From positions 1 through 30,322 of the IMG/VR virus record IMGVR_UViG_3300025138_000211: a DNA stretch of 30,322 nucleotides. One strand, 5' to 3'. Of the stretch, positions 2,170 through 30,141 are shown in pieces. Numbering within the stretch: position 1 is the first letter of the stretch; the number at the start of each line of letters is the position of its first letter. The notes under the pieces were generated by a model. The model ran no database searches. It had not been told where the DNA came from and saw nothing but the letters and a program-made list of their open reading frames with translations. The DNA comes from a virus. The position numbers were made by a program, and so were the translations under genes.

Positions 2170-5100
2170 TTATACATATGAAGGTACAAATGATGGTTCT
2201 TGATTAGATTGACCAGCTAAATATAATCTTCTTGTTGCAACTAATGCTTTTACAATATCCCCTACAGTTTCAGATGTTGTAGATCTATTTACAGTTCCTT
2301 GATAATATCCAGTGTTACCAGCTCCTGTAGTAACATTACCTACATTTGTATTACCTGAATTATCTTTGATTGTAGCCGGCATACTTGCCCATTCTTGTGC
2401 TAGGGATTGAACCGCCTTAGATAATTCTTGTTTAGTTCCTGGAACCGTCCCATCTATATATTTTCCAATATTTGGTCTACTATTAAATAAAAGAGTATCA
2501 CAAAGTTTTTCTTGGTTTGCAGGGCTAAATATGTCAGTTGTTGAAACCCCTGTTGTGCTACGAAGTAGGGATTTTAAAGTATTGGGGATTATTTGGTACC
2601 TTCCCATAGCAAAAGTACATATAGGTACTAAACAACTGGAAAAAGTAGTTGATCTTTGATCTAATAATTCCACTATTGTTTTCCCTACAACTACTGTATT
2701 ATCTGGGATTGTTGCCTTTGTTAAACTATAACCCCCTCTGCTTCCTTGATTTGCTATATCATATTTATTTCTACTTTCATGTAAGGCTATCATATCTTTA
2801 ATAGGTTGTAATCTTGGGTCTCCGCTGTAAGCTGTTATTTGAGGTGCTGGATTAGCTGATAGTAAAGCCTGAACTGCCTGGCTTGTATTATTAGTACTTC
2901 TAACTGATGTTACTGGTGTTGTATTTCCTGTATTTGGTTTTGCATTTAGGTTAGAAGTTGATAATGTTTGTAAGTTAGTAGTCCACCCACTTCCATCTAT
3001 TTTATGATTTATTCCTTTTATTAAAAATTGTAAAGAATTAGCGTAATTAGAAGGTAAAAATCTTTGATTAATGTCAATTTTATTATAAATTCTAAATCCA
3101 GCAATACCTTCCATATCCATAGAAAATTCTATAGGTAATAAGCCTATTTGGTTAGATGGTTCTTTTGTTGGGTTATTTGCCGCTGCTCTATTGTTTGCTT
3201 CATCTAAATATATTTTATAAGCAGATTTTCCTGCTTTTGCAAATGAAGATTCAGCTTTTCTAAAAGTGTATTCAGCATTAGTTTTAGAAATAGGTGAAAC
3301 TTGAATATTAAGAGCTTGTTGTGTAGCAAGAGGTACATTAGGTGTACCCCCAAACATTTGAGCAAGATAAGCAGAATAATTTGCCCCTGCTAATGCTCTG
3401 GCACTCCGTCTTTGGGCACCTGTTGCTGAATTATTTGTAGAGGCTTGACCTCTCCAGTTCAAGAGTGGTGTAAATGTTGGATAATATACATTGTTACGTA
3501 TAACCTCCCTATTATTAGAATTTGAAAATTTTGGAGAGCTTAAATCCGGTGGGGTTTGTAGTCCATAACCTAATGCTAAACCTTTTATTATTTCTTTCTT
3601 AATATGTACACCATATGAAACACCATCTTTAATCCTTTTTAGGAAATCTTGTTCAAATGTATTTCTCCCCTCATCAGTATCATGTATATCATAAGACATA
3701 TAAACAGTTGTTACAAAGTTTGTTGCTTTCCATCCTACTGGATTGGTCCCATTGGCAGTAGATGCTTCTTGGGCGTCAAAACCATCCTGTATTATTTCAT
3801 CAAGTAAAGTATTTTTTGCTCCTACATTTCTCATAAATGTAGTGTCATTAACACCCTTTCCTTCTAAAGTCTGTTTTCTTATTACATTTACAGTATCTTG
3901 TTTGATTGGAAGGAAACCATCTTTACCACCATCTGGATTTGTAGTATCACCACCTCCATAATTACTTCCTATAATTTTACCTTGATCATCAATAAAAATT
4001 TTAATAGTTTCAACATCAGCAGCTGGGTGGACTAAAACGGGGAGGCCGCTTCTTATTACTACAGTTTTTGACATTTTAATACCAAGATCTATCATCATTG
4101 GAAATAGTGCTGGGTTTGAAAGTTGAGTGCCCGTCACAGGTACTAGTAAAGATTGCAAAAATGCGCTATTACCGGCATATCTATTTCCTACACTAGTTTG
4201 ACCAGAGTTGCCTGTGGAGGTATTACCTCCGGTGTTTATACTAGTAGCAACAATATCTGGGTCCTCAATTGTTTGTTGAAATCTATCAACTAACCCACTA
4301 TTCCATTTAGAAAGACCAGTAGCATCCTGTCCTAGGGCAACACCATTAGCTGTAGCTCCAATAGATAGTTGGCTAGCTAATTTAGGTGAAAATTTAGTAT
4401 TAAAAGAAATATTTTTTAGAAAAGTACCTTGTGGTTGGGTTTGTGAGGTCCCAAGATCAAAACCAACAACTTCAAAATGTGCAGTTTCTGTGGGGTTTTT
4501 TGTTACAAGTTTACTCATATTACTACTAAGCCCCTCTATAGGTTTTGTATCCATAAAAGTTATAACTTTATCATCTTTAATTATAGGTTCTATATCTATA
4601 ACATTAGCAAAAGCAGAATTAATATTATCACACATACTTTGTAAAAACTTAAAAAAAGTTAAATTTCCTTTTTTATCAACATTTTTACTAAGAGTAGCAA
4701 ATATCATATCATAATTTAGATATATGTTTAATATTTTACCATATATCATATCACTAGAGGAAATTGCATTTCCGGTAGGATTACGTGCAGTTTGTGACTT
4801 AAATGTGAAATCGGAAGGTATTATTTGAGTGGTTCCTGAGGGATATTCATATGAATTATTACTAGGGTCATATGCTGAAAAACTTTCAACTGTTTGTGGG
4901 TTATAGATAATACTATCAAGGACTATATCATGGGTAGGACCTGTTGGAGGTGTACCACTACTATTTCCCTCTATTACCGTAAATTCTTTCATGGATTTTG
5001 TATAATCTGGGATGTTTATTCCATTTATATCATTTCGGTTAAGATTTGTACCATCATCCATTTTAACCATACACACAGCAGGATCAAAAGAAATTAAATT

Positions 5101-6306
5101 AGGTTGAATGCTACATACTACTTTATTTGTTTGTTTATCAAATTCAGTAAATTTTATTTTATTATTATTATTAATATCAGGTGTTATATGTGTTTCTATT
5201 AAATTTAATAATTCTCCAAACCTAATAAAATAATTGTATTCAATTTTTATTCCTGAAGTAGTATTACCTCCGAGAAAACTATTATATGAAGAATTTTGTA
5301 ATGCTTGGAATAAATTAAAATAATCTCCATTACCACCACCACTCCAAACTGATTCTTTGTTTAATACTCTATATAAAATAGTACCTAATTTGGTTACAGT
5401 TTTATTTGCATCAATAGTAGATTTTGCTTCCTTTAATAATACAAGTCTTTCGTGAGACATATTTTTTAAAGTTTCTTTTAGTGCCTTTGATGGGGATTGG
5501 TTAATTTTCATAGATTCAATAACATCCCCTAATCCTGTCATTTTAACTGTTATTTTATAAGAACCATCGGCATCATATTTCCAATTAAAATTAACAACTT
5601 TTCCAAAAAGACCACCCGTGTTACCAGAATAGTCTAGTGTTTTTTCATTTATAGCCTTAACTATATCATCTTGATTTGTAGATTGAAAAAAGTTATCTTC
5701 TACTACTGTAGATCCTACTGTTTGATAAACCCCATCATTATCTATATATTTATCCCATCCCCATTCTAATATCATAGAAAAACCTAATCTACAATATAAT
5801 GTTTCAATTATCTCAAATTGATATCTATTAAACGCAGTAATTTGAATCGTAGCGGTTTTTATTGATCCTCTATTTTTACTATCAATAGATATAGAATTTA
5901 TACCTGGCATAGGTAAAATACCAAAGTCATTTCCTCCTAAACCATAAGCTGAATTATTAAAATAGGAAGTAGATGGTAATATTGCATTAGCACCAGCATT
6001 TACTCCAGCTCTCATTTGTAATTTTGCTTGAAGTTCTGATAAACCATTAAACAATATTGCTTTTGTAGCTAAACCTTCACCTTTAAAATTTGACGGGTTT
6101 CCTGTATTTGCAGGAGTTCTTAAATTTTCATCTAATATGGAAACAGAAGATGCCATTTTAATCCAGGCATTTCTATTATTCATAAATTGTATATCCTGGG
6201 GGGTACGTACGGTATTTATTAGCCCCTTCCCATAAGTTTCCTGGCGAACCCTTACTTGATTGCTTACAAATTCTGCGGTATTTTCTCCAATTACACTACC
6301 TGTCAT
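2170..6306 (-). CDS. Giant baseplate hub protein with C-terminal tail-lysozyme domain
   Basis: 1378 residues, by far the longest gene here. The N-terminal part is Gly/Asn/Thr-rich with a conserved-looking segment at about 155-205 (RGSIKTATIQITAFNRYQFE, then a Trp-Gly-Trp-Asp motif), as in phage baseplate hub proteins. At about residues 1160-1320 there is a lysozyme/transglycosylase-like domain: a candidate catalytic Glu in MIALHESRNKYD (about 1174), then MGRYQIIPNTLKSL, FSPANQEKL, GKYIDG and LAQEWASMP. This combination is typical of phage muralytic enzymes that cut the host wall during DNA injection. In T4 that role belongs to gp5, a separate and smaller hub protein. The gene lies 3 bases after the LysM gene in the baseplate cluster. 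The lysozyme call is by motif pattern; hub assignment is from position and domain combination. Confidence 0.7.
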   Translation of the reverse strand: MTGSVIGENTAEFVSNQVRVRQETYGKGLINTVRTPQDIQFMNNRNAWIKMASSVSILDENLRTPANTGNPSNFKGEGLATKAILFNGLSELQAKLQMRAGVNAGANAILPSTSYFNNSAYGLGGNDFGILPMPGINSISIDSKNRGSIKTATIQITAFNRYQFEIIETLYCRLGFSMILEWGWDKYIDNDGVYQTVGSTVVEDNFFQSTNQDDIVKAINEKTLDYSGNTGGLFGKVVNFNWKYDADGSYKITVKMTGLGDVIESMKINQSPSKALKETLKNMSHERLVLLKEAKSTIDANKTVTKLGTILYRVLNKESVWSGGGNGDYFNLFQALQNSSYNSFLGGNTTSGIKIEYNYFIRFGELLNLIETHITPDINNNNKIKFTEFDKQTNKVVCSIQPNLISFDPAVCMVKMDDGTNLNRNDINGINIPDYTKSMKEFTVIEGNSSGTPPTGPTHDIVLDSIIYNPQTVESFSAYDPSNNSYEYPSGTTQIIPSDFTFKSQTARNPTGNAISSSDMIYGKILNIYLNYDMIFATLSKNVDKKGNLTFFKFLQSMCDNINSAFANVIDIEPIIKDDKVITFMDTKPIEGLSSNMSKLVTKNPTETAHFEVVGFDLGTSQTQPQGTFLKNISFNTKFSPKLASQLSIGATANGVALGQDATGLSKWNSGLVDRFQQTIEDPDIVATSINTGGNTSTGNSGQTSVGNRYAGNSAFLQSLLVPVTGTQLSNPALFPMMIDLGIKMSKTVVIRSGLPVLVHPAADVETIKIFIDDQGKIIGSNYGGGDTTNPDGGKDGFLPIKQDTVNVIRKQTLEGKGVNDTTFMRNVGAKNTLLDEIIQDGFDAQEASTANGTNPVGWKATNFVTTVYMSYDIHDTDEGRNTFEQDFLKRIKDGVSYGVHIKKEIIKGLALGYGLQTPPDLSSPKFSNSNNREVIRNNVYYPTFTPLLNWRGQASTNNSATGAQRRSARALAGANYSAYLAQMFGGTPNVPLATQQALNIQVSPISKTNAEYTFRKAESSFAKAGKSAYKIYLDEANNRAAANNPTKEPSNQIGLLPIEFSMDMEGIAGFRIYNKIDINQRFLPSNYANSLQFLIKGINHKIDGSGWTTNLQTLSTSNLNAKPNTGNTTPVTSVRSTNNTSQAVQALLSANPAPQITAYSGDPRLQPIKDMIALHESRNKYDIANQGSRGGYSLTKATIPDNTVVVGKTIVELLDQRSTTFSSCLVPICTFAMGRYQIIPNTLKSLLRSTTGVSTTDIFSPANQEKLCDTLLFNSRPNIGKYIDGTVPGTKQELSKAVQSLAQEWASMPATIKDNSGNTNVGNVTTGAGNTGYYQGTVNRSTTSETVGDIVKALVATRRLYLAGQSNQEPSFVPSYV

Positions 6307-8750: not shown

Positions 8751-11075
8751 CTAAGGGGAAATTTCATAGGTATTCATTGATACTGCCGTACCCATTTTTT
8801 CTGCATCCATAGTAACCGTACCTTGTGTAGAAGCTATTCTACTTAATAAAGAATTCGTTTGCGCTTGTAATTCTTCTAACCTTTTCATTGATGTAGTACT
8901 CATACCCCCACCACTTTGTGCATTAGCTAAAGCTTCTGATGCTCCTGGGGCTGCTACAATATCATCATTATTAGAAAGTTCAAATAATCCTCCTTCTTTA
9001 GTAGAAATTTGTGTTTTACCATCAGCTGGAGAATTTACATCACCTGCTTTTAAATATTTATATCCTAATGCAAGGGCCGCAGCACCTGCTACTGCTGCTA
9101 ATACTGGTCCTATAACTGGAGTCATAGCTGCGGATTTTGCTGCAGTAATAGCTAAACCACCTACATCTTTTGCTGCTGATGCTGCTTTCAGAGCCGCATT
9201 CCTTTTCTCCATCATCATGGATATTTTCTGGTATACTTGGTAGCCTTTGTAAGCCCCTACCATAGCTACAATCAACCCTAAATTTTTCTGAGCGAAAGTA
9301 GTTAAATCAGTCATGGTCTGTAGGATAGGCATAAGAAGTTTTCCCATTTCCATAAAAGTTTCATTCATTTTTTCAGAAGCTAAAGCCATTTTTTCTTGTT
9401 CCGAAGCTTGATTAAATAAATTTTCTAATGTACCTGCTTCTTGGGCTTGCATAGCAGCATCTAAACCATGTTTTTCAATAGCAATGTCTAATTTTTTCTG
9501 TTCTTCTTTAGCTTGTTCTCCTGTTAATCCTTGTAATTGTTCTTGGGTAAATAGGGTTTGCGCTAAGTCTTCTCTAGACATACCAACAGCAGCAGCTAAA
9601 GCTTGTTGTTGGATTCTATTCATTTCGGCAAATTCAGCAGCTGATCCTGCTTCTTTTGCTATTTCTTCTGCAACCGTAGCCATATCATTATTTAAAGCAG
9701 CAGTTCTTGCTTTTTCTAAATTAAGATTTTTACCAAGTAATAATTCAGCTTCCATTTCTTTTTCAATAGAAGATTCAAAATCAAGTAAACTATCAGCTAT
9801 ACTTTCTACATTAGACATTTCCATACCTAAAGCTTTCGCGGTAGCAACAGCTTTTGCAATTGCCTTTGGATTTTTACCTAATGATAAAGTTGTAGCTGCT
9901 GATACCTTTGATATAGAAGCCATTAACTTCTTTTCATTTAATAATACTCCATGTTTTAAAGATGCAGATTTAGCCTGGGCTAGAAATTCCCCAGTCATTT
10001 TTTTCATATCCTTACCAGTAGCAAAAGATAGTTTACCTATACCCATCATTTCTTCTTGGGTCATTCCTGCTAATTTTTCCATTTGGGAAAAAGTAGCTAA
10101 TGTTTTAGCACTTATAGCAGTTGAAGTACCCATTTCAGCATTAATAGCCATTAAGGCATGTTTTTGACCTTCATAAGTAACACCAAGACTATCAGATGCT
10201 TGAGAGGTTTTTAACATTTCTCCAGAGAGTTTATTTGCTTCACCTACACTTATATTTAATCCTTTAGCAATTTTACCAGCAGATTCATCTGCTTTCATCA
10301 TCCCACTAAATACTTTTGTTAAAATTGCTAGGGGACCAAAAGAATCCATTAGTTTTCCAACTCCAGCACTTAACCCCTTAAACCCTGCTTTAACTTTATC
10401 TAATCCAGATAAAGCTGATGCTGTGCCATCTTTACCTATTGAAACCATACTAGCGGCCGCTTCTTTAGATGCTTTTGCTGCTTCTTCAAACCCACCAGTT
10501 AATTGTCCAACTCCAGGAATTGCTTTTGCTACAGCAGCTAATGAGCTAAATAATTTTACTGAACCTAAATCTGCAAGTTGTTGTGAAGCTGCAACTTGGG
10601 AGTCAAGTATTTTAACTCCTTCTTGTTGATTTTCTACTTGTGTAGCTATTCCCTGTTGTAAGTCTCTAGAAAGAGCAATTTGTTTTTGTGCATCAGCAAT
10701 TTCTTTTTTAGACATAGTAGCTTTAGTAGCTGCTAAATCATTTTCTTGAATTTTAATGGCTTTACCTAACTGGCTGTTTTCTCTTCTAAGATTAAGTAAA
10801 CCTTTTGTATAGTCTTGTTGTTTTTTTACGATACTATTAGTATCAGTTAAAGCTTTATTGGTAGTTTTAGCTATATCTACTTGGAATTCTGCTTGTTTAT
10901 TTAAAGCAGTTAAAGATTTCCTAACGGAATTTTTTAAATCCGCTTCTTTAGTTATTAATTTTAACCCCTCACGGATTTCATTATTAATATCCCTAGTAAT
11001 CCTAAGATTTTCCTCCTGAGCATTTCCTAAGGCTTTAGTTTCTTCGGTTTGTTTCTTAATTTCTTTAGAATCCAT
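8751..11075 (-). CDS. Tail length tape measure protein
   Basis: A 774-residue, largely helical protein rich in Ala, Lys, Glu and Met. Residues 1-170 are Lys/Glu/Gln-rich coiled coil. The middle (about 260-580) is a long helical region (AKGLNISVGEANKLSGEM, KLMASISKVSAATTLSLG). Hydrophobic segments lie at about 600-615 and 645-676 (TPVIGPVLAAVAGAAALALG), as expected for a tape measure that inserts into the host membrane during injection. It directly follows the chaperone gene and its frameshift extension, the usual place of the tape measure in long-tailed phages. At about 1.5 angstroms per residue, 774 residues would specify a tail of about 115 nm. T4 itself encodes its tape measure (gp29) in a different gene order. 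Confidence 0.75.
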   Translation of the reverse strand: MDSKEIKKQTEETKALGNAQEENLRITRDINNEIREGLKLITKEADLKNSVRKSLTALNKQAEFQVDIAKTTNKALTDTNSIVKKQQDYTKGLLNLRRENSQLGKAIKIQENDLAATKATMSKKEIADAQKQIALSRDLQQGIATQVENQQEGVKILDSQVAASQQLADLGSVKLFSSLAAVAKAIPGVGQLTGGFEEAAKASKEAAASMVSIGKDGTASALSGLDKVKAGFKGLSAGVGKLMDSFGPLAILTKVFSGMMKADESAGKIAKGLNISVGEANKLSGEMLKTSQASDSLGVTYEGQKHALMAINAEMGTSTAISAKTLATFSQMEKLAGMTQEEMMGIGKLSFATGKDMKKMTGEFLAQAKSASLKHGVLLNEKKLMASISKVSAATTLSLGKNPKAIAKAVATAKALGMEMSNVESIADSLLDFESSIEKEMEAELLLGKNLNLEKARTAALNNDMATVAEEIAKEAGSAAEFAEMNRIQQQALAAAVGMSREDLAQTLFTQEQLQGLTGEQAKEEQKKLDIAIEKHGLDAAMQAQEAGTLENLFNQASEQEKMALASEKMNETFMEMGKLLMPILQTMTDLTTFAQKNLGLIVAMVGAYKGYQVYQKISMMMEKRNAALKAASAAKDVGGLAITAAKSAAMTPVIGPVLAAVAGAAALALGYKYLKAGDVNSPADGKTQISTKEGGLFELSNNDDIVAAPGASEALANAQSGGGMSTTSMKRLEELQAQTNSLLSRIASTQGTVTMDAEKMGTAVSMNTYEISP

Positions 11076-11104: not shown

Positions 11105-11137
11105 AAAAAAAGCAACTATTTATAGCTGCTTTTTCCT
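11105..11137 (-). terminator. Hairpin terminator after the chaperone extension, symmetric on both strands
   Basis: A 13-bp stem (11107-11119 with 11122-11134, one G-U pair) and tiny loop, flanked by A on one side and T on the other. It could terminate transcription in either direction. On the minus strand it is followed by a run of T. The stop codon of the frameshift extension (11116-11118) lies inside the stem. Confidence 0.7.
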
Positions 11138-11400
11138 TTATATGGTTTAGATGCTTGGGTAAAAGCTGGGGTATTAATCTTACCATCTTTTCCTATTAAA
11201 GTTTCTTTTCCTTTTTCTTGTGGTGGAGCAGATGATTTTTTATTAAAATTTCTAATTTCTGAAAAAATGTATTTTCTTAACCATATAGGAATATTATATA
11301 CAGTATTAAAATCATAACCACCATTACCATGGTAAATTATTTGATGTAAATGATTAAATAGATTTAATCTAATTGCGGGTGCATTATTAAGCGTCAGGCC
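11116..11400 (-). CDS. Tail chaperone extension reached by frameshifting (no start codon)
   Basis: 94 codons are open from GGC at 11400 to TAG at 11116, in the +1 (equivalently -2) frame relative to the upstream chaperone gene. The frame has no ATG, GTG or TTG start, and a TAA closes it upstream at 11410-11412. It looks coding: YHGNGGYDFNTVYNIPIWLR followed by a charged helix (KYIFSEIRNF), then a Lys/Gly/Pro-rich tail ending KGKSSYK. Small proteins with a similar Gly-Gly-Tyr and Pro-x-W/H-L-R pattern occur beside gp26 in T4-like phages, from memory. In lambda, P2 and Mu a frameshifted chaperone is made at low level, binds the tape measure and assembles tube subunits; the same role is inferred. 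The fused product would have about 332 residues. A CTG at 11397 is a less likely non-canonical start. Confidence 0.7.
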   Translation of the reverse strand, partial: GLTLNNAPAIRLNLFNHLHQIIYHGNGGYDFNTVYNIPIWLRKYIFSEIRNFNKKSSAPPQEKGKETLIGKDGKINTPAFTQASKPYKGKSSYK

Positions 11401-12115
11401 AAAAAAAGTTTAATCCCAGAGGGACTTCTACCTCCCTTCCATTGTCTAAAGTGACGTTCATATCAACATCTGGTTGAGTATTTTTTAAATGTTCTCTAAA
11501 AGATCTAGAATCTCTAGCTAACATATACCCATCAACAAATTCTCTAATAGATTTAGAATCTTCATCTCCATTAACAGAAATTATTATGTGTTTTAATCTA
11601 GTTGTTAATTCAGGTACATTGTCCTTTTGAATTTTCTTTAATCCTTTTAATTCAGCTTCTATTTTAGCATTATCATGACCATTTAATAATTTATAAGTAA
11701 TTTTAGTACCACTATGGGGTAGAGTATAAGCAAGTTCATTTTTTCCTTCAATTAATGTTGAAGAATCAAATGGTTTGTTATCTAATTCAGTTAAATCTAT
11801 ATCTAGTGTTTCTCCTTCATATGTAATATGATATTTTTTACCATATCCTAAAATACGAGTTGCAATTAGTATAGCATTTTTATCACCTATAAGTAAATCT
11901 TTTAATTTTATAGATTTATCTATAATAACAGATTCAAGTACTTTGTCTAAAACTGTTCCTTTTTGAATATAGGATTGATTAGTTAAAATATCTTCTTCCT
12001 TAGCGGTCATATATTTAATTTCTACTTTACCACTTGATAGTGGGTTGTCTTTAGGATACAATAATCCTTCAGAGGGTAAGTCTACTTCTTCAGTTGGGAA
12101 TTTAAATTCACTCAT
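11387..12115 (-). CDS. Tail assembly chaperone / T4 gp26-like protein
   Basis: 242 residues. The N-terminus (FPTEEVDLPSEGLLYP, then KYMTAKEEDILTNQSYIQKG) matches the pattern of the T4-like gp26 family, annotated as baseplate hub or assembly protein in T4-like phages. The rest is alpha/beta with no membrane segment. It lies between the tail tube and the tape measure, where long-tailed phages keep the tail assembly chaperones, and its 3' end overlaps a second open frame through a T7 run. Both facts favour a chaperone role over a virion role. No copy of the promoter-like motif precedes it. The 100 bases upstream hold the tail-tube terminator, so a separate unrecognised promoter or readthrough must drive it. 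Confidence 0.75.
   Translation of the reverse strand: MSEFKFPTEEVDLPSEGLLYPKDNPLSSGKVEIKYMTAKEEDILTNQSYIQKGTVLDKVLESVIIDKSIKLKDLLIGDKNAILIATRILGYGKKYHITYEGETLDIDLTELDNKPFDSSTLIEGKNELAYTLPHSGTKITYKLLNGHDNAKIEAELKGLKKIQKDNVPELTTRLKHIIISVNGDEDSKSIREFVDGYMLARDSRSFREHLKNTQPDVDMNVTLDNGREVEVPLGLNFFWPDA
11401..11410 (-). other. Putative ribosomal frameshift site (AAC TTT TTT TGG)
   Basis: Seven T (plus-strand A at 11401-11407) preceded by AAC. The downstream frame is closed by TAA at 11410-11412 and the chaperone frame by TAA at 11387-11389, so any shift must occur between them. Shifts of +1 (AAC TTT TTT, skip T, GGC) or -2 (AAC TTT TTT TTT GGC) both work. A possible 5-bp stem (AGGGA/TCCCT) lies just upstream. 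Confidence 0.65.
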
Positions 12116-12215: not shown

Positions 12216-12704
12216 TTAGAAATTTAATACACAATAATCTGGTTGTACAGTGAAAGTTAATTCCTGTGCTGCGTCAGCATCTTCCCATGAATAATCTCCA
12301 AATGAAGCATCTGTAATCATTGCTCCTTTTATAATCCATTCAGATACTACATCACCTACAGGACCTAATACATTAAATGTAAGATCTTTTTTATAGAAAT
12401 CACTGTATCCATCTCTACCTGTTACTGATTCATGGTGTAAACGTACCCATTCCATTACGGCTTGTGCTCCTGATGGTGTAATTGGATCAAATAATGTGAA
12501 ACTTACGGTATTCCACACTGTTTTACCTTTAACATAACGTTGGACGTTGATGTGGTTAAGTGCTACACTACCTTGCGTTAATGACACGGCCCCTACAGCT
12601 TTTACCATATATGATGGAAAACCATCTATATACATAATAAATCTGTTCTTTTGCTTTGGCTCGAAGGCGGTAAAAAATATTTCGTTTGGATCTAATATTG
12701 CCAT
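12216..12704 (-). CDS. Tail tube protein (T4 gp19-like)
   Basis: 162 residues, the usual size of T4 gp19 (163). The sequence has the T4-like tube pattern: an N-terminal FEPKQKNRFIMYIDGFPSYM strand pair, then VWNTVSFTLFDPITPSGAQA, ESVTGRDGYSDFYKKDLTF, and a C-terminal ITDASFGDYSWEDADAAQEL ending in DYCVLNF. It forms the inner tube through which DNA passes. It stands alone, with a promoter-like motif 16 bases upstream and a strong terminator downstream, which suits a protein needed in many copies per virion. The start is the ATG at 12704. Confidence 0.92.
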   Translation of the reverse strand: MAILDPNEIFFTAFEPKQKNRFIMYIDGFPSYMVKAVGAVSLTQGSVALNHINVQRYVKGKTVWNTVSFTLFDPITPSGAQAVMEWVRLHHESVTGRDGYSDFYKKDLTFNVLGPVGDVVSEWIIKGAMITDASFGDYSWEDADAAQELTFTVQPDYCVLNF

Positions 12705-12746: not shown

Positions 12747-15029
12747 TTATGATGGGAATGTTGCTCCTGTTGGTAATACATTGAAATCTAATATAATAAA
12801 TTCAGCTGTTTTAGTTGGTTGGAGGTAAATTTGACCTACCATCTCATTTCTATCAATAACATCTGGTGTATTATTTGTTTCATCCATTACTACTCTAAAG
12901 GCATACAATCCTTGTCTTTGTTGTACTGATTCTAAGTATGGGTTTACTTGGGATAAGAAATTATTTCTTGTACCCATAGTGTTTTGTTCAAATACTAAAT
13001 TATCAGATACTTGTACTATATAAGATTTTAATGCTATTAATAATCTACGTACATTTACTCTATCTAAAGCACTTGCTTTTCTCTGTAAAGTTTTTTGTCC
13101 AAATACTACAACTCCACTTTGTGGGAAAGTAGCAATTGGGTTTATATTTGCTTCATATAGTGTATCTCTGTTTCCAGAAGTTAATTTTCTTTCAGCTCTA
13201 ATTACTTGACCTAATCCACCTCTAGTTAAACCTGCTGGTGCGAACCATGGGTCTGAAGAAGCATCTGTAAAAGCAAATACTCCGGGGATTAATGTTGATG
13301 CAGGTGACCAAATTGTTCTTCCTGAATCTGGGTCAACTAATTGTAACCATGGCCAATAAGTTGCTGCATATGAAGTATCGAATGAAGAAGCTCCACCTAC
13401 TACATTTCCAACAGTAGAACCATATCCTCTTAAATCAATAATTGATAAACAATCTTGACGTGCTTCCGCTGTTGTTACAAGTAAATTAACTTGTGAAGAG
13501 TGGAACTCTGAAATTAATCCTGGTGCTGATAATACATTAAATTGGTAATCATCTTTATTAGTTAATAAATTAATAGATGCTGTGTAATCTAAAGGACCAA
13601 TTCCTTGTATGTTATTAGCATCAATGCTTTCATTAAATTTAGCAGCTCCACCTGGGAATAAAGAACCAGTAGCATTAGTAAATGAGCCTGAGCTTACTAA
13701 AGGTATACTTGCTGTAAATTGTGATTGTGCATTTCCGGCATTATCAAAATAATTAGGGGTTGGATAGTTAACTGCAGATACATAAATGTATTTACTTCTA
13801 TTAACATACGACCCATTTTGTTGAATGTAGTAATCACTACCATCTTGTTGAACATCACTATAATAACTGTTACCTATTACAGTTTCAATATAATTAGTAG
13901 CTAAAGGATCTAAAGATACATTATTAAATGTTTCTAGTATTGATTTTTGTGCATTTGTATCATTTCCTCTACGAACTGCTAAACTAAATACACCAGAACC
14001 TGTATTACGTCCTGTAATTTCCCATCTTAAGTTATCTTGTGAACCATTAGCTAAAGCTCCTCCTGTAAGCATTGAACCTGAACTGTTCATGATAGCTCCT
14101 TGTGAAATAGTACTTAATACAAACGGCATACCATTTTCTACGGCTGCTGCTGTTAAAGGTAAAAAAGTTGCATCATTTGCACCACCAAGTACGGCTGCTG
14201 CAATTGTAACTACATCATTTAATTTATAACCCGTTCCTGGGTTGTTAACTGTTACTGCTGTTATTGTTGATTTTAAATCTACTTGTTGGATTTGAATAAC
14301 TAAATCACCACCTACTGTACCAATACTACCATCAGAATTCATTACTGCTTGTGATACTGTTATAGTAGTACCCGCTACATAACCACTAGATCCGGCATTG
14401 GATATTACTGCTCCAGTAATGTTAGTTCCGTCTCCTGTTACTATTACTGTTGCACCTGTACCAGCAGCAGATGTTGTTGCTAAAGCAGCTGTTGTTCCAG
14501 AACTATCAGCAGTTACTCCTGATGGAACTGTTAGTACTGCATCTGGTAAGAAAGTATCTAATGTTGCTACTGTATAATTTACAGTAAGACCTCCACCACT
14601 TCCTCCTACGGTTGCAGCTCCTACAACATTACCAACAGTTCCCGTTGTTGGGTTACTGTTAATTAAAGTAAATAAATTAAATCCTGATTCTAAACCACCA
14701 ACTTCTACTTCATTATATAGATTTATAGAGTTAGCACTGGTAAAAGAACCAGATGCTACTCTAGTTACTAGTAAAGTTGAACCACCTTGTCTAAAATAAT
14801 TATTAGCTGCTACTTGGTTTAAGTAGGAATATTGTTGTGAACCACTTGTTACGGATCCTCCAAAAATTGCTAAATATTCGCTGTATGAAGTTACTATTGT
14901 TGGAACTTCAACAGGACCTTTAATAGAAGGTCCAATTATTGCTGCACCTACTTCTACTGGGCCTTGAGTAATTTGAGATGAATCATTCTCTCTTGCTAGT
15001 ACTCCTGGAGATATTAATGTTTCTGCCAT
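12747..15029 (-). CDS. Contractile tail sheath protein (T4 gp18-like)
   Basis: 760 residues. The N-terminus (SPGVLARENDSSQITQGPVE, GAAIIGPSIKGPVEVPTIVT) is the standard sheath start. The C-terminal third holds the conserved sheath core, with DRVNVRRLLIALKSYIVQVS, VFEQNTMGTRNNFLSQVNPY and QRQGLYAFRVVMDETNNTPD. Between about residues 130 and 290 lies a Gly/Thr/Ala/Val-rich insertion with two similar beta units (SNAGSSGYVAGTTITV and VNNPGTGYKLNDVVTI), probably a surface domain. The protein contracts to drive the tube into the host. It has its own promoter-like motif 27 bases upstream and is separated from the tube gene by another one. Confidence 0.93.
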   Translation of the reverse strand: MAETLISPGVLARENDSSQITQGPVEVGAAIIGPSIKGPVEVPTIVTSYSEYLAIFGGSVTSGSQQYSYLNQVAANNYFRQGGSTLLVTRVASGSFTSANSINLYNEVEVGGLESGFNLFTLINSNPTTGTVGNVVGAATVGGSGGGLTVNYTVATLDTFLPDAVLTVPSGVTADSSGTTAALATTSAAGTGATVIVTGDGTNITGAVISNAGSSGYVAGTTITVSQAVMNSDGSIGTVGGDLVIQIQQVDLKSTITAVTVNNPGTGYKLNDVVTIAAAVLGGANDATFLPLTAAAVENGMPFVLSTISQGAIMNSSGSMLTGGALANGSQDNLRWEITGRNTGSGVFSLAVRRGNDTNAQKSILETFNNVSLDPLATNYIETVIGNSYYSDVQQDGSDYYIQQNGSYVNRSKYIYVSAVNYPTPNYFDNAGNAQSQFTASIPLVSSGSFTNATGSLFPGGAAKFNESIDANNIQGIGPLDYTASINLLTNKDDYQFNVLSAPGLISEFHSSQVNLLVTTAEARQDCLSIIDLRGYGSTVGNVVGGASSFDTSYAATYWPWLQLVDPDSGRTIWSPASTLIPGVFAFTDASSDPWFAPAGLTRGGLGQVIRAERKLTSGNRDTLYEANINPIATFPQSGVVVFGQKTLQRKASALDRVNVRRLLIALKSYIVQVSDNLVFEQNTMGTRNNFLSQVNPYLESVQQRQGLYAFRVVMDETNNTPDVIDRNEMVGQIYLQPTKTAEFIILDFNVLPTGATFPS

Positions 15030-29471: not shown

Positions 29472-29876
29472 TTATTTTAATATAAGTATTACTCCACCTA
29501 TTGCTATTAGACCTGCGCCTCCTAAAATTTTATTTTTAAGCCTTTGTTTTTTAATTTCAAGTCTTAACTTATCGTTTAATTGTTTAGTAAATTCTAATTG
29601 AGATCCTTTAGTTGATAGTATAGAATTAAAATTACTTATTTGGAAGTTAAGATTATTAATAACACTATCTTTTAATACTACCTTATTTTCTAAGAATGAG
29701 TATTTAGTTGTTATTAAACTTAATTCTTTTTTAAAACTATCTCCAGTTATTAAGTCCTTAATTACTAGACGGACTATCGGTTTTTGTAATCGAATCGAGG
29801 TACTGTCTATAACGTTCTGTGAAAAACTGTTCAAGCTCATCATCCCTATAAGAATCAACATTATTAACTTTCTCAT
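29472..29876 (-). CDS. Putative outer component of a spanin pair (exported, coiled coil, C-terminal TM)
   Basis: 134 residues. The N-terminus MRKLIMLILIGMMSLNSFSQ is a signal peptide of the style common in Flavobacteriia. There is no lipobox Cys, so it is not a standard Rz1-type lipoprotein. Residues about 50-110 are coiled coil and about 117-133 (GGAGLIAIGGVILIL) form a C-terminal membrane anchor. Its 5' end overlaps the upstream membrane coiled-coil gene by 119 bases in another frame, the arrangement typical of Rz/Rz1 pairs that fuse inner and outer membranes at lysis. The topology differs from known spanins, so the call is tentative; a periplasmic or virion role is possible. Confidence 0.4.
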   Translation of the reverse strand: MRKLIMLILIGMMSLNSFSQNVIDSTSIRLQKPIVRLVIKDLITGDSFKKELSLITTKYSFLENKVVLKDSVINNLNFQISNFNSILSTKGSQLEFTKQLNDKLRLEIKKQRLKNKILGGAGLIAIGGVILILK

Positions 29877-30141
29877 TTGTTTGTTTTTTTAATATAACTA
29901 TTTTACTATCTTGCTTACTAATTTCTTGGTCTAATACTGATATTTGTGTGTTTAATACACCAATTTCTGATGTTAGATCTTCATTAATGTTATGTAAAGA
30001 ATTTATTTTATCATTTAAGGCTTCTATTTTACTATTATACTCAGTAATATATTCTTCCTCATTTGAGGAGTACATATTAACTAAATAATAGACACCAAAA
30101 AATACTATGGCGAAATATAAAAACCTTTCTTTAGATGACAT
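29758..30141 (-). CDS. Putative inner-membrane spanin (Rz-like)
   Basis: 127 residues. A single N-terminal membrane segment (about 7-23, FLYFAIVFFGVYYLVNM) is followed by a long coiled coil (35-95) and a conserved-looking end DDELEQFFTERYRQYLDSI. An N-in anchor plus periplasmic coiled coil is the plan of i-spanins. The last 39 codons overlap the next gene in a different frame. It starts on a 1-base TAATG overlap with the upstream gene. The lysis role is inferred; no holin or endolysin is visible nearby in the window. Confidence 0.5.
   Translation of the reverse strand: MSSKERFLYFAIVFFGVYYLVNMYSSNEEEYITEYNSKIEALNDKINSLHNINEDLTSEIGVLNTQISVLDQEISKQDSKIVILKKQTNEKVNNVDSYRDDELEQFFTERYRQYLDSITKTDSPSSN

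Follow-up and report, generated by a model that had tools for sequence, protein, structure and literature searches.

The window (the whole stretch of 30,322 nucleotides analysed here, from IMG/VR record IMGVR_UViG_3300025138_000211) carries a gene for a gp26-type tail assembly chaperone whose 3' end overlaps an open frame that has no start codon of its own. By which means is this second frame translated? We propose, with a probability of about 0.86 and from comparison of sequences, that the locus is a single tail-assembly-chaperone gene making two proteins through programmed +1 ribosomal frameshifting.

Organization of the locus

The window comes from a T4-type myovirus (terminase, portal, major head protein and sheath families). 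By terminase the closest named phages are the Flavobacterium immuto phages (~63% identity) and the Microcystis phage Mel-JY01 (52%); direct DNA comparison (E < 0.01) matched the immuto phages only. On the minus strand the gene order is sheath, tube, chaperone, extension, tape measure (Table 1), and the tail tube protein is 59% identical to the product of the gene of equivalent position in immuto.

Table 1. Features of the chaperone locus and its neighbours in the window.
Feature	Coordinates	Strand	Evidence
Tail sheath protein	12747..15029	(-)	phrog_23 tail sheath, E 2.1e-72
Tail tube protein, upstream gene	12216..12704	(-)	phrog_4542 tail tube, E 1.5e-23
gp26-type tail assembly chaperone, short form (TAC-N), zero frame	11387..12115	(-)	ORF; phrog_150 baseplate hub, E 3.9e-8; AlphaFold model
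Shine-Dalgarno-like AAGGGAGGT, candidate stimulator, 23 nt upstream of the T run	11430..11438	(-)	anti-SD energy; family conservation
Short hairpin TCCC-TCT-GGGA, after the SD-like element and before the shift site; weak candidate	11414..11424	(-)	family mean z
Putative shift site, T7 of AAC TTT TTT TGG (UUU-Y)	11401..11407	(-)	TTT TTT TGG in 227/296 related loci; UUU-Y in 293/293 with a +1-phase extension
Doubly read GG CCT GAC GCT (zero frame W-P-D, +1 frame G-L-T)	11390..11400	(-)	CCT/GAC codon bias
Start-less +1-frame extension (TAC C-terminal domain), 94 codons + TAG	11116..11400	(-)	no ATG/GTG/TTG; third-position-biased substitutions; conserved motif
Tape measure protein, next gene downstream	8751..11075	(-)	34% identical over 241 aa to the tape measure protein annotated in Flavobacterium phage immuto

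The chaperone ORF has 242 codons and ends with GGA TTA AAC TTT TTT TGG CCT GAC GCT TAA, the stop lying at 11389-11387. The extension frame stretches from a TAA at 11412-11410 to a TAG at 11118-11116, i.e. 97 codons from the opening stop, 94 of them past the T run. Joining the two frames needs a net +1 (or -2) change of register between 11409 and 11390; because the TAA at 11412-11410 bounds the +1 frame upstream, the shift is confined to the roughly 20 bases between the two stops. The sequence AACTTTTTTTGG, which holds the run of seven T, occurs only once in the window (11410-11399, minus strand). The first-pass annotation had claimed these frame coordinates and stops and a join at the T7 run, and all of them hold once placed on the minus strand; the absence of ATG, GTG and TTG that it had reported was also confirmed in the extension frame of the window.

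Two regions away from the chaperone locus deserve mention. Two ORFs with hydrophobic stretches (29472-29876 and 29758-30141(-)) overlap by ~119 nt in different frames, and both are possibly real genes. A 1378-aa protein is encoded at 2170-6306(-); its C-terminal part (~1205-1332) matches phrog_37890, of unknown function, and most of the protein falls in no family.

The split gene in related phages

Related loci were collected from five IMG/VR scans with chaperones of different lineages and one with the extension, from one GTDB genome scan and from annotated phage records, giving 296 loci with a readable junction. Identities reach down to 24%. An extension in the +1 phase is found in 293 of the 296, over at least 40 codons in 288 of them and running into the contig end in the other five. 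The three loci that depart from this arrangement are L204 and L209, whose extension has its own ATG, and L112, from a huge uncultured phage, in which the only open frame is a different one.

In the sub-clade of the window, substitutions in the extension are concentrated at third positions of the +1 frame; against one related locus (L085), for example, they number 3, 3 and 17 at the first, second and third codon positions. The extensions of the relatives also have in common a conserved motif, GG[YF]...Y.[ML]P..LR. Judged by these comparisons the extension is under coding (purifying) selection in the +1 frame, and its earlier description as a convincing protein segment is borne out.

Nucleotide conservation at the junction

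The commonest junction is TTT TTT TGG, present in 227 of the 296 loci, Rhodothermus phage RM378 among them, against only 8 occurrences of T7 in the 223,806 nt of remaining sequence of these genes. Other forms are TTT CTT TGG (35 loci), TTC TTT TGG (14), TTT CTA TGG (4), CTT TTT TGG (3) and rarer ones such as TTT TTT CAC in Bacillus phage SP-15, TTT TTT AGT in Listeria phage LIS04 and TTC TTT CGT in Streptococcus phage GXN1. All 293 loci with a +1-phase extension have a zero-frame UUU followed by U or C, on which tRNA-Phe could make a cognate re-pairing one base downstream, the property expected of P-site slippage of the prfB and PSA type. Cognate re-pairing two bases back is possible in 237 of them only and impossible in 56, where the T run is just 3-4 long. 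Thus the T7 run, which the first-pass annotation took as the joining element, is the commonest form of the site and not its essence; what does not vary is a UUU (Phe) codon with a pyrimidine after it, and selection maintains this zero-frame UUU-Y codon rather than the length of the run.

Codon usage around the junction was examined in 101 clusters at 80% identity, which are not fully independent, so that the P values are optimistic. TTT encodes the second Phe in 89 of 89 clusters (background 76.5%), CCT the Pro in 95 of 97 (37%) and GAC the Asp in 62 of 64 (21.5%). The base preceding the T run is T in a single cluster of the 101. The preferences for CCT and GAC are at least partly due to double reading (W-P-D and G-L-T); the preference for TTT and the avoidance of T before the run are not. 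On these codon biases the synonymous positions of the shift site are under selection. UGG, which would occupy the zero-frame A site, is scarce: away from the junction region, the 101 genes contain it 18 times in all.

At the position just before the run (11408 in the window), AAC is found in 31 clusters and AAT in none, though AAT is the commoner codon. Two loci (L103 and L104) have, besides the normal site, another T7 run further upstream in the same overlap region, 79 nt ahead of the chaperone stop.

Proposed +1 shift and its alternatives

We suggest the following course of events. The majority of ribosomes would stop at the zero-frame TAA and release the 242-aa TAC-N. In a smaller number, which hold peptidyl-tRNA-Phe on a P-site UUU while the rare Trp codon UGG waits in the A site, this tRNA would move one base forward onto UUU (UUU to UUY in the family), after which GGC would be read. 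The product of the shift would be a 332-aa TAC-NC with the junction N-F-F-G-L-T, a minor form beside the 242-aa one. By analogy with lambda G/GT, the two proteins would bring tail tube subunits to the tape measure. That the slip takes place on the ribosome, and its efficiency, we infer. Very probably, then, the shift yields a fused product that is longer and rarer than TAC-N; the genome records examined do not annotate it.

The first-pass annotation had left a choice between +1 and -2. Its conclusion that the phase is not that of a -1 shift stands, and within the window alone both remaining shifts would be possible; the choice of +1 rests on the relatives. A programmed -2 shift as in phage Mu, in which the P-site tRNA-Phe goes back two bases and an extra Phe is inserted (NFFFG), has a precedent (PMC5009743) and is permitted by the T7 run, itself conserved in most loci. 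It is nevertheless unlikely, since cognate +1 re-pairing is permitted in all 293 relatives and cognate -2 re-pairing in 237: the other 56, with junctions such as TTT CTT TGG, TTC TTT TGG, TTT CTA TGG and TTC TTT CGT, keep the same phase. First-position wobble is conceivable for CTT to TTC, but not for TTT to TCT as would be needed in the 14 TTC TTT TGG loci.

The same 56 loci bear on transcriptional slippage, in which RNA polymerase would omit one U or add two in the T7 run and thereby give a minority of fusion transcripts. The homopolymer of the 227 loci would allow it, and the rarity of T8 together with the avoidance of T before the run would fit a control of homopolymer length. But a long homopolymer is not conserved, and as the 56 loci with the same arrangement have a longest T run of only 3 or 4, slippage cannot be general; we consider it very improbable.

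Less probable again is a separate translation of the extension, either from a non-standard start or by ribosomes that re-initiate once past the stop of the chaperone. An SD-like element does lie upstream, and L204 and L209 do carry a separate ORF with an ATG; on the other hand the +1 frame has no conserved start codon, the window having none at all, and separate translation does not require the selected nucleotides of the slip site, which decay exactly where an ATG exists. The CTG of GGC CTG was considered as a non-standard start and rejected, this codon being CTT, CTC or CTA in relatives.

Homopolymers are prone to sequencing and assembly errors, but the idea that the gene is truly one 332-codon ORF with six T has next to no chance of being right: another IMG/VR contig (L082) has the same chaperone, extension and junction as the window, the phase is constant in 293 loci, many of them without a T run longer than 4, and a miscounted run (6 or 8 T), named beforehand as what would overturn the claim, is excluded by hundreds of loci.

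Loci with an ATG of their own

In the chaperone tree L204 and L209 group together as a single clade (support 100), which sits among the TTT CTT TGG loci. Their extension starts with its own ATG just past the chaperone stop, in a different phase. The corresponding sites read TTC TTG TAT CCT GAC or TTC CTT TGG CCA GAT, i.e. the slippery nucleotides are gone while F-L-[WY]-P-D is retained. The nucleotide motif is therefore kept elsewhere for the change of frame and not for the amino acids. Relatives with an ATG before the same frame had been announced as a refutation of frameshifting; they exist, in this one clade only, and as the slip site is lost there too they serve as a control. With UUU-Y in 293 of 293 loci that have the +1-phase extension and its absence from these two, the site is conserved and tied to the frame arrangement, as in systems of the G/GT type. 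On these alignments shift site and reading frame co-vary across hundreds of loci, and the earlier proposal of a gp26-type chaperone joined to a start-less extension by a programmed frameshift is supported by the comparative evidence. The free C-terminal ORF of L204 and L209 begins with a new N-terminal stretch common to both, M.NID..L.E.Q....GRQFLG.

Candidate stimulators

Most of the 101 clusters have an SD-like element at about -34 to -24, with a motif match between -36 and -20 in 70 of them. The amino acids that it encodes vary (EE, GG, KE, RE, RR). The anti-SD energy has a minimum of -11.3 kcal/mol at the element of the window; the family mean is -6.3 kcal/mol, versus -2.6 in synonymous shuffles at the same place. 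This element may act as a stimulator of the frameshift. Such elements lie 3 nt from the shift site in prfB and about 10 nt in dnaX; the one in the window lies further off than in these known cases. A short hairpin is modestly favoured in the region -21..-3 (family mean z -1.9 versus synonymous shuffles) and is only a candidate. Downstream of the site, RNA structure is weak (mean z -0.5 to -0.7; about -1 versus synonymous shuffles), none of it convincing.

Relation to T4 gp26 and gp51

The gp26-type protein is assigned to phrog_150. The AlphaFold model of the zero-frame protein (pLDDT 89) matches the structures of T4-like baseplate hub assembly proteins and of the SP-15 hub protein; its match to the HK97 tail assembly chaperone is not significant (E 0.45). 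By hhalign the fused protein aligns collinearly to its C-terminus with the T4 gp51 family (E 3e-5, precisely 3.3e-5, probability 72%), and over its N part only with the T4 gp26 family (E 0.0012, probability 19%); both alignments are weak, and the 72% is reached only with family alignments, T4 gp51 as a single sequence giving 1.5%. For the extension, Pfam returned nothing reliable (DUF6760 at E 0.14, below the cut-off). A PDB sequence search gave no match, and a single-sequence AlphaFold model of the fusion was unusable (pLDDT 32).

These alignments fit a scheme in which T4 gp26 is the short and gp51 the long chaperone, encoded as two genes. Some T4-like phages are described as having a short and a long chaperone in two genes (Vladimirov et al. 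2022, as cited in PMC10885494). The relatives of the window thus resemble the T4 family in protein and differ from it in gene number: each of six related contigs of 118-188 kb has just one chaperone copy (the window itself is a fragment).

Comparison with known systems

The locus resembles the lambda G/GT type of tail chaperone frameshift (Xu, Hendrix and Duda 2004, as cited in PMC2147016; reviewed in PMC5009743) in its short chaperone, its start-less overlapping extension, a slippery site close to where the short ORF ends and its position between the tail tube and tape measure genes. In lambda and most other cases, however, the shift is -1 at heptamers, while here it would be +1 at UUU-Y and the N domain belongs with T4 gp26; the extension of the window is in the +1 phase, unlike those of the -1 heptamer subclass (lambda, P2). 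With T4 it has in common the gp26-type chaperone fold, T4 having two genes (26 and 51) where a single gene and a change of frame are found here. The -2 shift of phage Mu gives the same product frame as +1; the re-pairing is possible in the window but not throughout its relatives. In the tail chaperones of Vandenendeviridae and Andersonviridae a -1 frameshift occurs at GTTTTT (PMC12846349, 2025); as here, a poly-T site ends a myovirus TAC-N gene before the tape measure, a likeness of site and place, with the direction opposite.

Among structural genes, +1 frameshifts are known in HSTV-2 (tail chaperone) and Listeria PSA at CCC (PMC5009743). These, like bacterial prfB, would share with our locus a P-site +1 slip that needs no long homopolymer. 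They differ in that here the codon is Phe UUU, the A site holds the sense codon UGG and not a stop, and the SD-like element is 23 nt away. The prfB codon CUU U occurs in the immuto clade too. For Bacillus phage 0305phi8-36 a two-gene form without frameshift has been proposed (PMC2147016).

Tail-chaperone frameshifting is well known, in -1, -2 and +1 versions. According to a 2016 review, conservation of G-T frameshifting is wide, "except T4" (PMC5009743). Our literature search, which largely could not reach subscription papers, turned up no account of gp26-type chaperones with a +1 UUU-Y shift. PMC12846349 refers to Vladimirov et al. 2022 for poly-T signals in "TAC-N genes of T4-like phages", so frameshifting in some T4-like chaperones may have been described earlier in that paper. 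A +1 frameshift conserved over a large, mostly environmental T4-type clade would, if true, close part of the T4 exception. It would also make a +1 shift site available in hundreds of natural variants, together with a built-in loss-of-site control, and the shift sites would be simple ones, UUU-Y and no clear 3' structure. As for annotation, the records of immuto, Mel-JY01, SP-15, RM378 and LIS04 have no joined gene at this place; the second tail chaperone is at present either overlooked or entered as a short hypothetical ORF (immuto 232, SP-15 046, Mel-JY01), which the present reading would correct.

Frame states across the family

Six distant relatives from jumbo phages (CM1, Vibrio 2.275, 121Q, Atu_ph07, PA5oct and XacN1; L313-L318) have a comparable C-terminal frame in the -1 phase. 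These frames are start-less or nearly so and adjoin TTT TTC or TTT TTT A runs; from their sequences they look like cases of unannotated -1 frameshifting. On the chaperone tree, whose deep branches are long and of unsure placement, the frame state needs two changes only, one between -1 and +1 and one to an own ATG, whereas the sequence of the +1 site was altered many times. It is about an even bet that one chaperone family kept a two-product output while switching the means: jumbo phages would shift -1 at TTTTTTC-type sites, the lineage of the window would shift +1 at UUU-Y, stimulated by an SD-like element at an unusually large distance, one sub-clade would have set its C-terminal ORF free, and T4 would have duplicated the gene.

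In Streptomyces phage BRock (L312) the extension is in the +1 phase and follows TTT CGC, consistent with the UUU-Y rule. The BRock record annotates only a 60-codon piece of this extension, as a hypothetical protein.
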